In this document: piece after piece, positions 4,159-21,535 of the stretch
How the letters are laid out: each line of letters starts with the position of its first letter
Position numbering within the stretch: position 1 is the first letter of the stretch
Assembly: GCF_023217965.1 (NCBI RefSeq)
Contig: NZ_JALPSC010000001.1
Location: 1,984,001-2,048,000, forward strand
Source: Prevotella sp. E13-27
GTDB lineage: Bacteria > Bacteroidota > Bacteroidia > Bacteroidales > Bacteroidaceae
Length of the DNA stretch: 64,000 nucleotides
Reading direction: 5' to 3'
Position numbers and translations under genes: made by a program
The notes under the pieces: model-generated
What the model was told of the DNA's origin: nothing
Seen by the model: the letters and a program-made list of their open reading frames with translations, nothing else
The model's database searches: none

Positions 4159-4190
4159 TTTGTTTGGTTCGCAGAAAAGTACTACTTTTG
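4159..4190 (+). promoter_or_regulatory. Promoter of the aromatic amino-acid operon
   Basis: TTTG (4159-4162), 20 nt, TACTTTTG (4183-4190). Transcription would begin near 4196, leaving about 24 nt before the leader-peptide ATG and about 197 nt before the first structural gene. Confidence 0.65.
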
Positions 4191-4219
4191 CTCCCGAAAA
4201 CAATAATAGAGAGACAACC

Positions 4220-4297
4220 ATGTTGAATATTAATGCATTTTATTACGGCTATTATTATTACTTTACAAGCAATTGTGAAGCGGTAGGTCGTGCATAA
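4220..4297 (+). CDS. Tyr/Phe-rich leader peptide (attenuation)
   Basis: A 25-codon ORF reads MLNINA, FYYGYYYYF, TSNCEAVGRA, stop. Eight of nine consecutive codons are Tyr or Phe (ttt tat tac ggc tat tat tat tac ttt). It sits between the promoter and a terminator hairpin, ahead of Phe/Tyr biosynthesis genes, which is the arrangement of pheL-type leader peptides. The end of the ORF contains gtgaagcgg (4275-4283), which is exactly complementary to the left arm of the downstream terminator (4332-4340). A ribosome stalled on the Tyr/Phe codons would leave that strand free to form an antiterminator; one reaching the stop would cover it. The mechanism is inferred from this layout. Confidence 0.8.
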   Translation: MLNINAFYYGYYYYFTSNCEAVGRA

Positions 4298-4325
4298 TAA
4301 TTCATATGTGGATTAGCTAAATGAT

Positions 4326-4360
4326 AAAACCCCGCTTCACGAGATGAAGAGGGGTTTTTT
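4326..4360 (+). terminator. Attenuator terminator of the aromatic operon
   Basis: The left arm 4326-4339 (aaaaccccgcttca) pairs with the right arm 4345-4358 with one G-A mismatch at 4334/4350. The loop is cgaga, and the T run extends to 4360. Positions 4332-4340 can instead pair with 4275-4283 in the leader ORF (9 bp), which excludes the terminator. Confidence 0.8.
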
Positions 4361-4392
4361 AATGAAGTTATGACATCTAAGAATTAAAAGAT

Positions 4393-5556
4393 ATGATACA
4401 AGGAGCTGACAGATTAAACTTAGTAAGCGAATATTACTTCAGTAGGAAGCTGAAGGAGGTGGCACAGATGAATGCTGAGGGTAAGAATGTTATCAGTCTT
4501 GCCATTGGAAGTCCTGACATGCCGCCATCAGAGAGTACTATTGAGAAACTGTGTGAGGTTGCTCGTGACCCTTCGGCTCACGGATATCAGCCAACAATGG
4601 GTACGGCTGAACTGCGCGAGGCGATGACAGGCTTCTATAAGCGTTGGTATGATGTTGACCTTGATGCCAAGACTGAGGTGCTGCCTCTGATAGGTTCGAA
4701 GGAGGGTATCCTGCATATTACGCTTGCTTTTGTTAATCCTGGTGACGCGGTGTTGGTGCCAAACCCTGGCTATCCTACCTATACGTCGCTCTCGAAAATA
4801 TTAGGTGCAAAGATTGTGAATTACAATCTGCGCGAGGACAACGGATGGCAGCCAGACTTTGACGAACTGGAGAATATGGACCTCACAGGAGTGAAGCTCA
4901 TGTGGACAAACTATCCCAATATGCCGACGGGTGGGCGAGCACAGCGTGAGACCTACGAGCGTCTGGTGAAGTTCGCTATGGATCATGACATAGTTGTGGT
5001 CAACGATAACCCTTATAGTTTTATTCTTAGTGAAGAACATCTGAGTATCCTTCAAGTGCCTGGGGCAAAGGAGTGCTGTATTGAGCTGAACTCTATGTCT
5101 AAGAGCCATAACATGCCAGGCTGGAGAGTGGGACTGTGTGCCACTAACGCTCAGTTCATACAGTGGATTCTGAAAGTGCAGTCAAACATTGAGAGCGGCA
5201 CATTCCGCGGCATCCAGCTTGCTGCTGCTGAGGCTTACAGAAATGATGAGGCATGGCATCGCGAGTTTAATATTAATACATATGCTCGTCGCCGTAAGTG
5301 GGCTGAGAAGATTATGGATGTGCTGGGATGCACGTACGACAAGAGCCAAGTTGGAATGTTCCTCTGGGGAAAGATACCCGAGAGCGTGGCTAACGTGGAA
5401 GATCTGACTGAGAATGTGCTTCACGAGGCTCGAGTATTTATCACACCTGGCTTCATCTTCGGCTCAAATGGTGAACGCTACATCCGCATTTCGCTCTGTG
5501 CAAAGGAGGAAAAAATAGAAGAAGCACTTCATAGAATTCAAAAATTAACGAAATAA
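4393..5556 (+). CDS. Aromatic/prephenate-type aminotransferase, class I PLP
   Basis: This is a 387-aa fold-type I aminotransferase. The PLP lysine is K237 in the motif SMSKSHNMPGWRVG, and the Asn and Asp that hold the cofactor are in WTNYPNMPTGG and VVNDNPYSF. The arginine that binds the substrate carboxylate is expected in the GERYIRISLC segment near the end. The family includes Asp, aromatic and LL-diaminopimelate aminotransferases, so the name is by context. It is the first gene behind the Tyr/Phe attenuator and precedes DAHP synthase/chorismate mutase and prephenate dehydrogenase, so transamination of prephenate, phenylpyruvate or 4-hydroxyphenylpyruvate is likely. In related Bacteroidales a prephenate dehydratase gene often precedes it. 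None is present here. Confidence 0.85.
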   Translation: MIQGADRLNLVSEYYFSRKLKEVAQMNAEGKNVISLAIGSPDMPPSESTIEKLCEVARDPSAHGYQPTMGTAELREAMTGFYKRWYDVDLDAKTEVLPLIGSKEGILHITLAFVNPGDAVLVPNPGYPTYTSLSKILGAKIVNYNLREDNGWQPDFDELENMDLTGVKLMWTNYPNMPTGGRAQRETYERLVKFAMDHDIVVVNDNPYSFILSEEHLSILQVPGAKECCIELNSMSKSHNMPGWRVGLCATNAQFIQWILKVQSNIESGTFRGIQLAAAEAYRNDEAWHREFNINTYARRRKWAEKIMDVLGCTYDKSQVGMFLWGKIPESVANVEDLTENVLHEARVFITPGFIFGSNGERYIRISLCAKEEKIEEALHRIQKLTK

Positions 5557-5578: not shown

Positions 5579-6643
5579 ATGGAACTGGAACTTCAACCAC
5601 TGAATCTACCAAGTGACAACGAACGTCCTTTCGTAATTGCAGGCCCTTGCTCTGCAGAGACTGAAGAACAGGTTATGAAAACTGCCCAGCAGCTTGCTAT
5701 GCGCGGATGCCATAATTTCCGTGCTGGAGTGTGGAAGCCACGTACCAAGCCAGGCGGCTTTGAGGGTAATGGCGAGATGGCACTCCCATGGATGCAGCGC
5801 GTGAAGAAGGAGACTGGCATGCTCGTATCTACCGAAGTTGCTACTCCAGAACATGTGGAGCTGGCTCTGAAGTATGGTATTGATATTCTTTGGATTGGTG
5901 CACGTACCTCGGCAAACCCATTTGCTATGCAGGCTATTGCCGACTCGTTGAAGGGCGTTGACGTGCCAGTGTTCGTGAAGAACCCTGTTAATCCAGACCT
6001 TGAGCTGTGGATAGGCGCTTTGGAGCGCATCAATCAGGCTGGTGTAAAGCGACTGGGTGCCATTCATCGCGGCTTCTCTTCATATGATAAGAAGATATAC
6101 CGTAACATGCCTATGTGGCAGATTCCCATTGAGCTCCGCCGTCGTATTCCTGAGCTTCCAATAATCTGTGACCCCTCACATATAGGAGGACGTCGTGAGC
6201 TTATAGCTCCTCTCTGTCAGCAGGCTATGGACCTTGGCTTCGACGGCTTGATAGTGGAGAGCCACTGCGACCCAGACAAGGCTTGGAGCGATGCTTCGCA
6301 GCAGGTTACACCCGATGTGCTTGACTACATACTGTCGCTGCTTGTTATACGTGACGAGCATACAACAACTGAGGGCATACAGACTCTGCGTAAGCAGATT
6401 GACGAGTTGGATAATCAGATTATGGACCTGTTGTCGAAGCGCATGCGTGTGTGCCGTGAGATAGGTCAATACAAGAAGGAACATAACATGACGGTGCTGC
6501 AGGCAAATCGCTACAACGAGATATTGTCGAAGCGTGGTGTTCAGGGTTCTCTTCTTGGCATGGGACAGGAGTTCGTGGCTCGTGTGTTTGAGAGCATCCA
6601 CGAGGAGAGTGTGCGTCAGCAAATCGAAATTATTAATAAGTAA
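5579..6643 (+). CDS. Bifunctional DAHP synthase / chorismate mutase
   Basis: The product is 354 aa. Residues about 1-262 are a class I DAHP synthase barrel (FVIAGPCSAETEEQVM, RAGVWKPRTKPGGFEG, DPSHIGGRRELI), which joins phosphoenolpyruvate and erythrose-4-phosphate at the shikimate entry. Residues about 265-350 are an AroQ-type chorismate mutase (LRKQIDELDNQIMDLLSKRM, REIGQYKKE), which makes prephenate. Fusing the first shikimate step to the first Phe/Tyr-specific step is known in Bacteroidetes, where the mutase domain can also serve as the feedback sensor. It starts 22 nt after the aminotransferase gene and is controlled by the same attenuator. Confidence 0.93.
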   Translation: MELELQPLNLPSDNERPFVIAGPCSAETEEQVMKTAQQLAMRGCHNFRAGVWKPRTKPGGFEGNGEMALPWMQRVKKETGMLVSTEVATPEHVELALKYGIDILWIGARTSANPFAMQAIADSLKGVDVPVFVKNPVNPDLELWIGALERINQAGVKRLGAIHRGFSSYDKKIYRNMPMWQIPIELRRRIPELPIICDPSHIGGRRELIAPLCQQAMDLGFDGLIVESHCDPDKAWSDASQQVTPDVLDYILSLLVIRDEHTTTEGIQTLRKQIDELDNQIMDLLSKRMRVCREIGQYKKEHNMTVLQANRYNEILSKRGVQGSLLGMGQEFVARVFESIHEESVRQQIEIINK

Positions 6644-6689: not shown

Positions 6690-7484
6690 ATGAGAATATT
6701 AGTTATGGGCGCAGGCAAGATGGGAAGCTTTTTCATCGACCTGCTTAGCTTTGACCATGAGGTTGCCGTGTTTGAGAAGGATGCGAAGCGTATGCGCTTC
6801 ACATATAACTGTCAGCGTTTTACCAGTTACGAAGAAATAAAGGCTTTTGCACCCGATCTGCTCATCAATGCTGTGACGCTGAAGTACACGATAAGTGTGT
6901 TTAAGGAGGTGATTCCTTATCTGCCGAAAGATTGCATCATCAGCGATATTGCCAGTGTAAAGACTGACCTGAAGGAATTCTATGAGTCAACAGGAATGCG
7001 CTATGTTTCTACGCACCCTATGTTCGGCCCTACTTTCGCTAATCTCAACCAGCTGTCAGAGGAGAACGCAATCATTATCAGCGAGGGCGACTACATGGGA
7101 CGTATCTTCTTCAAGGACCTATACCAGAAGCTTGGATTGAATATCTACGAGTATTCGTTTGAGGAACACGATAAGACTGTGGCATATTCTCTTAGTATCC
7201 CGTTCGTATCGACATTCGTGTTTGCTGCCGTGATGAAACATCAGGATGCTCCAGGTACGACCTTCAAGCGCCACATGAGAATAGCCAAGGGCGTTCTCAA
7301 TGAGGATGACTACCTGCTTCAAGAGATACTCTTCAACCCTTATACGCATGATCAGGTGAGCCAGATACGTAGTGAGCTGAAAGAACTACTTGAGATTATC
7401 GACAAGAAAGATGCCGATGGCATGAAGGGCTATCTTACGAAAATACGCAATAATGTGCGTAGGGATATTGAGATTAAGAAGTAA
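6690..7484 (+). CDS. tyrA: Prephenate dehydrogenase
   Basis: This 264-aa enzyme of the TyrA family oxidatively decarboxylates prephenate to 4-hydroxyphenylpyruvate. A Rossmann NAD(P) motif lies at the start (RILVMGAGKMGSFFIDLL), and the family's substrate-site segments follow (ISDIASVKTDLKEF, STHPMFGPTFANL). The protein is compact and has no C-terminal ACT domain, so feedback by tyrosine, if any, does not come from such a domain. It is the third gene of the attenuated operon. Its stop codon lies inside a run of heptanucleotide repeats that continues into the next gene. Confidence 0.92.
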   Translation: MRILVMGAGKMGSFFIDLLSFDHEVAVFEKDAKRMRFTYNCQRFTSYEEIKAFAPDLLINAVTLKYTISVFKEVIPYLPKDCIISDIASVKTDLKEFYESTGMRYVSTHPMFGPTFANLNQLSEENAIIISEGDYMGRIFFKDLYQKLGLNIYEYSFEEHDKTVAYSLSIPFVSTFVFAAVMKHQDAPGTTFKRHMRIAKGVLNEDDYLLQEILFNPYTHDQVSQIRSELKELLEIIDKKDADGMKGYLTKIRNNVRRDIEIKK

Positions 7485-7517
7485 GAAGTAAGAGGTAAGA
7501 GGTTAGAAGTGAGAGGC
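7476..7517 (+). repeat. Six-unit heptanucleotide repeat at a gene junction
   Basis: Exact 7-nt units read aagaagt, aagaagt, aagaggt, aagaggt, tagaagt, gagaggc. They include the tyrA stop (7482-7484) and the GTG start of the next gene (7509). Because 7 is not a multiple of 3 and several units contain a stop triplet across the join (gTAA), stops occur in more than one frame. Confidence 0.8.
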
Positions 7518-8432
7518 TTTTTTTATCATATAGTTGCATTCCTGACTGTTGCAGTGTGGGGTAGCACTTTTGTGTTTACTAAGCTGCTGTTGCTCAGCGG
7601 TTTGACGCCTGCGCAGATATTCACGCTACGCTTTTTTATAGCCTATTTGTTGCTGACGGCCTTTGAGATGGCTTTCCGTAGGAAGAAACGTCGCACAAAG
7701 CCTCGTTCGTGGACTGATGGACTGATTCTCTTGGGACTTGGCATTACAGGTGGCTCACTCTATTTCCTTTCTGAGAATGAAGCGCTGAAATATACCACTA
7801 CGACAAACGTATCGTTGATAGTGTGTAGCTGTCCTTTGGCTGCGGCACTGCTCATAGGGCTGTTCTATAAGTCGCAGCGAATGAATCTTAGACAGGTGGC
7901 TGGCATGCTGATGGCTGTCTGTGGAGTGACGGCAGTCATACTAAATGGACATTTCGTGCTACATCTGTCGCCACTTGGTGATGCGTTGGCATTGGTGGCA
8001 AACCTGTGTTGGGCCGTGTATTCGCTGTTGCTTATACCTGCCAACAAACACTATGATGCATTGTTCGTAACACGTAAGGTGTTCTTCTATGGCCTCTTAA
8101 CCATGTTGCCATATTTCTGGTGGAGGCCAGACGAACTGCCTACGTTCATGGGCGGCACTTTCGATATGAGTATTCTCATTCAGCCTAATGTGTTGACAAA
8201 TCTGCTGTTCTTGGGTGTGGTAGCATCGTGCGTGTGCTATCTTGTGTGGACGTGGGTTATGGATAAGCTCGGAGCTGTTGTTGCGACTAACTATGTGTAT
8301 GTTAATCCGCTCTCTACAATCGTCGTTGCATGGCTTGTACTGAGTGAGCAGATAACGCTTTATTTCATCCTCGGAGCCATACTTATTCTTGTAGGCATGT
8401 ACCTGGCGGATAAAAAAATGAAGAAAAGATAG
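7509..8432 (+). CDS. EamA/DMT-family transporter
   Basis: This 307-aa membrane protein has about ten hydrophobic segments arranged as two EamA repeats (about residues 1-140 and 155-300), typical of drug/metabolite exporters. The first repeat starts VRGFFYHIVAFLTVAVWGST. The second ends with VYVNPLSTIVVAWLVLSEQI and ends in lysines (DKKMKKR). The start is GTG and lies within the heptad repeat. The spacing from tyrA (24 nt) allows read-through from the aromatic operon, so export of an amino acid or related metabolite is possible. The substrate is not readable. Confidence 0.85.
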   Translation: MRGFFYHIVAFLTVAVWGSTFVFTKLLLLSGLTPAQIFTLRFFIAYLLLTAFEMAFRRKKRRTKPRSWTDGLILLGLGITGGSLYFLSENEALKYTTTTNVSLIVCSCPLAAALLIGLFYKSQRMNLRQVAGMLMAVCGVTAVILNGHFVLHLSPLGDALALVANLCWAVYSLLLIPANKHYDALFVTRKVFFYGLLTMLPYFWWRPDELPTFMGGTFDMSILIQPNVLTNLLFLGVVASCVCYLVWTWVMDKLGAVVATNYVYVNPLSTIVVAWLVLSEQITLYFILGAILILVGMYLADKKMKKR

Positions 8433-21230: not shown

Positions 21231-21535
21231 TAGCCCGAAAAAAGAAACTACTCGCGTTCGAAAAAAAAAGAAAGAATTCTTGTTTTTGTGCTCACTAAAT
21301 CGTACCTTTGCAGTCAAATTCATAGGGGACGTATCGGTTAGATTGGGATACTCATCAATTAACGCTTGAAAACCGGGCAGTCTTCTCTTGTCAATGGCGG
21401 GCCATGCGCCGAATAAGCGTAGCATTTTCATGCCGATGGATTACAAAGACGGAGAGCACCCACAACCTGTGATAAAGGAGTTTTCATCACATCACCTGTG
21501 CGTCCCCGTTTTTTTCTTTTCAAAATATTTTTGTT
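21231..21535 (+). other. Intergenic and 5' leader of ribE; unclassified structured RNA candidate
   Basis: A promoter (21303-21310) lies about 225 nt before ribE. The leader has several short inverted repeats: acgctt/aagcgt closing roughly 21362-21422, ggcg/cgcc inside it, gcat/atgc near 21422-21434, and tgtgat/atcaca near 21470-21494 next to the coding start. I looked for the FMN riboswitch core and did not find its conserved blocks. The leader may still regulate ribE, but no known class is supported. Confidence 0.4.
21303..21310 (+). promoter_or_regulatory. ribE promoter -7 box
   Basis: TACCTTTG, with TTG 20 nt upstream (21280-21282). It gives a leader of about 220 nt. Confidence 0.6.

Follow-up and report, generated by a model that had tools for sequence, protein, structure and literature searches.

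Does the short stretch at 4159-4392 of the window (the whole analysed DNA, 64,000 nt long) hold a ribosome-controlled switch that senses the supply of tyrosine and phenylalanine ahead of an aromatic operon? In our reading of the sequence this is very likely: the stretch would be a ribosome-mediated transcription attenuator sensing charged Tyr and Phe tRNA.

Leader, helices and operon in the window

The elements of the locus and the genes behind it are as follows.

4159-4162, + strand: TTTG, the −33 promoter element, by sequence and by the consensus cited in the available part of PMC7366714
4183-4190, + strand: TACTTTTG, the −7 promoter element, by sequence; TAnnTTTG lies upstream of most leaders
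4220-4297, + strand: leader open reading frame MLNINAFYYGYYYYFTSNCEAVGRA of 25 codons, ATG at 4220, TAA at 4295-4297
4238-4264, + strand: putative sensing codons Phe-Tyr-Tyr-Gly-Tyr-Tyr-Tyr-Tyr-Phe (FYYGYYYYF), whose content tracks operon content in relatives
4261-4268, + strand: segment 1, protector arm CUUUACAA, partner of 4273-4280
4273-4283, + strand: segment 2, UUGUGAAGCGG, of which 4273-4280 pairs with segment 1 and 4275-4283 with segment 3
4332-4340, + strand: segment 3, CCGCUUCAC, antiterminator partner of 4275-4283 and also the left arm of the terminator
4326-4358, + strand: intrinsic terminator hairpin (segments 3 and 4) running into a U-rich tail, −16.8 kcal/mol, z −5.0
4393-5556, + strand: aminotransferase, class I/II (PF00155)
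5579-6643, + strand: DAHP synthase fused to chorismate mutase (PF00793, PF01817)
6690-7484, + strand: prephenate dehydrogenase, TyrA-like (PF02153)
7509-8432, + strand: EamA-family transporter (PF00892), after a 24-bp gap

A preliminary description of this DNA had proposed a promoter, a 25-codon reading frame with eight Tyr/Phe codons in nine, a terminator, and perfect pairing between the end of the leader and the terminator's left arm, and all of these stand. Read directly, TTTG and TACTTTTG are separated by a spacer of 20, in agreement with the Bacteroidota promoter consensus TTTG/TAnnTTTG given in the available part of PMC7366714. The reading frame is seen directly at 4220-4297, its run comprising six Tyr and two Phe codons; none of 200 shuffles equalled the stability of the terminator. 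Finally, GTGAAGCGG (4275-4283) and CCGCTTCAC (4332-4340) are complementary at every base, and this perfect 9-bp pairing is the predicted fold once the terminator's right arm is omitted.

To these two stems, which the description had named, a third must be added: a protector hairpin of 8 bp, in which CUUUACAA (4261-4268) pairs with UUGUGAAG (4273-4280) around a GCAA loop. Judged from the sequence, segments 1, 2, 3 and 4 of classical attenuation are thus all there, as a full four-segment device. When the 64-kb window was scanned for reading frames that start with ATG, encode 9-40 residues including an amino-acid run and are followed by a terminator, this leader was the sole match. We had also considered a three-segment attenuator lacking the protector, because Tyr/Phe codons are A/U-rich; this was ruled out, as the run and segment 2 fold into the 8-bp hairpin, which is conserved in the family.

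On the strength of these elements, of how they are conserved and of how the codons track the genes, we infer a transcription start, leader translation, stalling, termination and read-through of the following kind. Transcription would start roughly 25 nt ahead of the leader ATG, and a ribosome would load on the leader without a Shine-Dalgarno sequence. With Tyr and Phe plentiful, the ribosome would pass the run and reach the stop, leaving segment 2 covered or back in the 1:2 protector; the 3:4 terminator would form and transcription would end. With Tyr (mainly) or Phe short, the ribosome would stall on the run and occupy segment 1, and the freed segment 2 would pair with segment 3, so that no terminator formed and the aminotransferase/DAHP synthase-chorismate mutase/TyrA operon would be read. 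Judging from the 24-bp gap, the EamA transporter is probably co-transcribed.

The operon matches its earlier summary as 'Phe/Tyr genes' only in part: shared and Tyr genes are present, but the dedicated Phe gene, pheA, is absent. The genome's single PF00800 match (pheA, prephenate dehydratase) lies on the other contig, behind an attenuator of its own, with leader MNKLNTMFFRFFFFTRTL and the run FFRFFFF (six Phe, no Tyr).

L001, contig C2, about 1258-1476: second, related attenuator of the window genome, before pheA, with a Phe-only run and the same GUGAAGCGG segment

Could the leader at 4159-4392 be a relic, or a product of chance, that no longer works now that the operon has been split? It does precede a rearranged operon, and elsewhere seven pheA genes that stand alone lack a leader. 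Yet neither attenuator of the window genome has lost its promoter, its run, its segment 2:3 pairing or its terminator, and the codons of each lean toward the genes that it precedes, which leaves this explanation with a negligible probability.

Spread of the leader and conservation of its helices

Relatives were reached through the aminotransferase (the best 80 matches listed, titled Prevotella, Prevotellaceae, Xylanibacter, Bacteroidaceae or Bacteroidales) and through wider samples of 201 genomes of the family, 118 of the phylum, and 79 and 294 of the order. All 80 of the best aminotransferase matches listed have a Phe/Tyr-rich leader. In 76 it lies before pheA, the first gene ahead of the aminotransferase; in the other four (L068, L072, L074 and L079, split Prevotella relatives) a leader with a mixed run directly precedes the aminotransferase.

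Conservation of the Tyr/Phe codons, which the preliminary description had proposed to seek by alignment in relatives, extends over the order. Among Bacteroidales pheA loci with at least 250 bases upstream, 226 of 240 are preceded by a leader in which a stretch of 9 residues holds 6 or more Phe/Tyr (76/76, 29/30, 27/28 with one genome per family, and 94/106), a count that covers only genomes with a detectable pheA, contains six repeats of genomes from the one-per-family set, and takes 76 loci from the aminotransferase listing, with possible overlap with genomes of the other samples. A further 40 pheA loci of the family, outside the 240, have the leader in 35 cases; the five misses are all g30 genomes whose operon is split and which keep a mixed run before the aminotransferase. 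In other orders of the class, 18 of 20 fetched pheA loci have a leader (19 of 23 after adding L204, which has one, and L191 and L261, which do not), and 15 of the 18 show segment 2:3 pairing at p ≤ 0.025. Such runs are rare by chance: at least 6 Phe/Tyr in 9 occurred in 9/1190 shuffled upstream regions and 1/238 antisense regions vs. 224/238 real ones.

Leaders were absent from five linked operons with complete upstream sequence (L291, L318, L350, L355, L356). Outside the class, none of 28 pheA loci (28 of the 30 in the sample) reached 6 in 9 within 600 nt upstream of the domain match, a weak negative, since some of these domains may be internal to a longer gene. No Phe/Tyr leader was found in same-genus genomes lacking pheA (L118, L119), where the close aminotransferase is missing too. 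Three genomes of the window's genus, given as 99% complete (G063, G099, G143), have neither a pheA match nor a close aminotransferase; in G063 and G099, the 2.2 kb ahead of the DAHP synthase gene yielded no Phe/Tyr leader.

The helices are conserved along with the codons. A terminator was found in 219 of 227 distinct leader regions and none in the remaining 8. Of 100 dinucleotide shuffles per region, no more than 1 paired as well as the segment 2:3 duplex in 181/219 regions and no more than 5 did so in 201/219, while 18/219 missed the 5% level; in three f65 genomes whose leaders are Phe-only, the antiterminator is weak (p 0.04, 0.10 and 0.08). From the last Phe/Tyr codon to the start of segment 2 the distance is a median of 10 nt (quartiles 9-12), exceeding 30 nt in 4/219. 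The footprint of a stalled ribosome would leave segment 2 free at about that distance.

We then aligned 103 family sequences on the window's own structure, itself one of the 103 (L035, L040, L090, L091 and L094, with no terminator found, were left out). In the protector, 95.4% of cells were paired, with compensatory changes in 3/8 pairs; the antiterminator (2:3) had 95.0% and 4/9, and the terminator 80.3% and 8/13. When one partner was slid by 1-3 columns, pairing fell to 36-60% (protector), 38-55% (antiterminator) and 37-67% (terminator). Compensatory cells numbered 47, 22 and 94 for protector, antiterminator and terminator, against slid maxima of 10, 10 and 11, and no helix had its pairing or its compensatory cells reached in any of 300 shuffles, a control that ignores kinship. 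Slid versions had up to 4 pairs with any compensatory change, vs. 3 for the protector and equal to the 4 of the antiterminator; for these two helices, the excess over slid controls is in cells, not in the number of pairs. The alternative pairing is conserved with compensation, in both the antiterminator and the terminator. Conservation of leader codons and alternative pairing in relatives was the comparative test that the preliminary description had set, and its outcome favours attenuation.

Locus by locus, the protector reached the 5% level in 71/199 leaders as a duplex and in 46/199 as a fold; against synonymous shuffles it did so in 17/199, where about 10 are expected by chance. This test is low in power, since E. 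coli pheL (p 0.33) and trpL (p 0.54) also fail it as duplexes (thrL, p 0.04). In 199 leaders, the Tyr at run position −2 is TAC in 92% and the Phe at −1 is TTT in 92%. These near-fixed codons adjoin or fall within the protector arm; codons earlier in the run are more variable at their wobble bases. Counted from the ATG, segment 2 begins 55, 54 or 53 bases downstream, depending on the locus, and is therefore read in different frames, which argues that it is kept as RNA and not for its peptide. A conserved C-terminal leader peptide (CEA..R) was accordingly rejected as a candidate; in relatives the same nucleotides lie in other frames or contain a stop.

These results also bear on a reading in which a T-box, a riboswitch or an RNA-binding protein controls the terminator, and the reading frame is incidental or encodes a small membrane peptide. 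The terminator and alternative helices exist whatever the reading frame does, and Phe/Tyr-rich peptides are hydrophobic. However, conservation extends to the run and to its spacing from segment 2 but not to the peptide past the run, and no Rfam family reached threshold at the window leader or five further loci. Even at E up to 1, the window leader gave three sub-threshold matches only (Leu_leader, PyrR and RsaJ) and no T-box; the match to Leu_leader, an attenuator family, scored 19.5 bits against 50 (E 0.093). We consider control of this kind very improbable.

Putative sensing codons and gene content

If the codons are the sensor of a ribosome-mediated attenuator, Phe-only and mixed runs should match the genes behind them. 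We compared 'lone' pheA genes, defined as those whose 1.1-1.5 kb of downstream sequence gave no match to any of the three window proteins, with linked ones, followed by the aminotransferase, DAHP synthase or tyrA. The count kept 159 pheA loci, with a leader threshold of 5 in 9 and Tyr scored inside the run only (Tyr also occurs before the run in L110 and L336, and after it in L249 and L306). It omits L294, L317 and L320 (contig ends), L276, L277, L281, L286, L287 and L299 (repeats), and L298 (linked, mixed), and it excludes the 80 aminotransferase-listed loci, the class sample (upstream DNA only) and the 40 extra family loci.

A leader was present at 145 of the 159 loci. Every linked pheA with a leader had Tyr in the run (135/135, or 136 if L298 is added), vs. 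8/10 lone pheA leaders with no Tyr and two with a single Tyr codon (L330, L338). For the absence of Tyr in lone vs. linked pheA, Fisher's p is 1e-11, uncorrected for kinship; the eight Tyr-less cases (G000, G117, G338, G348, G539, G358, G544, G609) make up five lineages by genus and family. The 14 loci without a leader are 7 linked and 7 lone, with the linked L253 and L373 cut upstream.

Where pheA has parted from its operon, the partner leader could often be read as well. G117 has FFSNFFFVF before pheA (L110) vs. AYVYSYYYF before the aminotransferase operon (L175); G338 has a Phe-only run at pheA and YYAFYYYFFY before the prephenate dehydrogenase gene; and G348 and G539 have a Phe-only run at pheA and AYFYYYFYF at the partner operon. 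Partner operons are readable in four of the five lineages, and Tyr makes up 62-83% of their Phe+Tyr vs. a mean of 44% in linked leaders, of which single ones reach 75% (L315, L378). In the f65 genomes G358, G544 and G609, a partner leader was sought and either the contig ended or none was in reach. Several genomes (G001-G003, G141, G169, G112, G079, G060) have pheA without a leader and keep a mixed leader at the aminotransferase operon; G152, also without a leader at pheA, has TYYYYYFYF on the aminotransferase side. Where the gene after a lone pheA could be named, it is not a Tyr gene: G000 has a Cys/Met metabolism PLP enzyme there, G117 a PALP-family enzyme (read as trpB) preceded by a Trp leader, and the three f65 genomes have ilvD, preceded by an Ile/Leu leader.

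This natural experiment is, as far as sequence can speak, the strongest evidence for our interpretation. Together with codon conservation and compensated pairing, it supports the earlier proposal that stalling on Tyr/Phe codons would choose antitermination. It is likely that one Phe/Tyr attenuator has been kept since early in the class Bacteroidia and that its codons were repeatedly retuned after operon breakup. Operon breakup may then serve as an evolutionary readout of what a leader senses, for which mutants are usually needed.

The codon patterns also weigh on the idea that the leader peptide senses free Tyr or Phe through arrest of the nascent chain, in the manner of TnaC and tryptophan. 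Under this idea, too, one would see a translated leader and alternative folds, and sequence is silent on the direction of the response. But no fixed arrest motif is apparent, as the run varies (YYYFYFYF, FFFYYFYF, YFYGYYFYF) while its Phe/Tyr codons keep their number and kind, and the match of Phe-only and mixed runs to gene content is what codons acting as the sensor would produce. Nascent-chain sensing is therefore very unlikely, and sensing of charged tRNA remains our preferred reading.

Some Phe/Tyr runs before aminotransferase or DAHP synthase operons contain a Trp codon (L240, L243, L335, L341, L342, L357, L372), possibly for sensing all three aromatic amino acids.

Start signals and known attenuators

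How ribosomes would load on such a leader was the question that the preliminary description had left standing, in view of the lack of strong Shine-Dalgarno sequences. A Shine-Dalgarno-like tetramer at −18 to −5 occurs in only 2/226 leaders, and the start context is of the A-rich, non-Shine-Dalgarno kind: adenine occupies −3 in 62% of leaders, −6 in 56%, and −12 and −13 in 71 and 69%, in a stretch that is A-rich generally. Within 95 nt upstream, TAnnTTTG is found in 188/226 leaders vs. 12/226 shuffled ones, and its end lies a median of 27 nt from the leader ATG. The available text of PMC6847099 describes Bacteroidota without Shine-Dalgarno sites and names adenine at −3 as a positive determinant in Flavobacterium johnsoniae; that of PMC9976891 describes a sequestered 16S rRNA 3′ tail in Bacteroidota. 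Given the A-rich start context and the conserved TAnnTTTG, the leaders have the start signals expected for the class.

In this attenuator the ribosome would have to start on the leader and act within about 140 nt of transcription (ATG 4220 to 4358). Without Shine-Dalgarno sites and with a sequestered 16S 3′ tail, how closely translation follows transcription in Bacteroidota is a real question, for which the attenuator offers a ready assay. If the attenuator is indeed class-wide, non-Shine-Dalgarno ribosomes would load nascent RNA fast enough for transcription-timed sensing.

The mechanism is of a known kind; what is new is its breadth, its four-segment anatomy and the retuning of its codons. 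E. coli pheL-pheA, trpL and thrL likewise place a leader reading frame with end-product codons, alternative helices and an intrinsic terminator before biosynthetic genes, and the same code recovered terminator and antiterminator pairing in all three (3/3). The window element differs from them in its mixed Tyr/Phe sensing, its operon, its start lacking a Shine-Dalgarno-like site and its promoter type. Segment 2 begins directly after the leader stop in E. coli pheL and trpL, and 12 nt before the leader end in thrL; in Bacteroidia leaders, unlike in pheL and trpL, it mostly begins ahead of the stop codon's end.

Sequence similarity to known attenuators was sought through Rfam only. RF01692, which we take to be associated with tryptophan genes, had no match at the window leader (also at E up to 1) or at five further loci, and RF01743, by its name presumably a leader for two amino acids, had none at the window leader. 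As there is no Rfam model at threshold, Phe/Tyr leaders are probably unannotated in many genomes. Since a large attenuation survey (Lopatovskaya 2010, Mol Biol 44:128) reportedly mentions Bacteroidetes/Chlorobi, we make no claim of priority for attenuation in the phylum.

The two Rfam families appear in the available part of PMC2864571, in a 2010 list, as Bacteroid-trp RNA, a cis-regulatory motif of Bacteroidetes, and as the Leu/phe leader of Lactococcus lactis, which belongs to a different phylum from the window leader. For Flavobacterium psychrophilum, a member of the same bacterial class, a 2021 account gives 'strong clues' that leader peptides attenuate amino acid operons, and describes a conserved 5′ element at pheA that is said to occur in other Flavobacteriaceae genera too and has no Rfam match (PMC9723704, in its available part). 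The 5′ regions before these operons are transcribed and structured; the section on 5′ elements in that account is silent on Bacteroidales, Phe/Tyr codons and operon breakup. Leader-like small reading frames are described for B. thetaiotaomicron in the available part of PMC7366714. The statement that such attenuation is not commonly described for Bacteroidales has to be tempered by the earlier reports of Flavobacterium attenuation and Bacteroid-trp. Our search, which left most subscription papers outside, found no paper on a Bacteroidales Phe/Tyr leader or on codon retuning, and no Bacteroidota terms were found in PMC13323073 (runaway transcription).

Leaders for other amino acids were seen along the way. 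In G117 (L110), a Trp leader MKHVSYFWWWQCSRFKKS and a terminator-like hairpin lie between the Phe-only-attenuated pheA and the PALP-family gene. In Bacteroidales of other families, Ile/Leu/Val-rich leader reading frames (e.g. MTKSILHIILVVVVLVLIPGAT and MRHILTSILFIILRESGKK) precede ilvD, either upstream of it (L394, L395, L400, L404, L409) or between pheA and ilvD (L334, L336, L345), and a terminator-like hairpin is visible at those of the f65 genomes; no such leader was found before ilvD of the window genome (L397). Elsewhere in the window lies another RNA.

21327-21511, + strand: 6S-like RNA, Rfam RF01693 Bacteroidales-1, 113 bits
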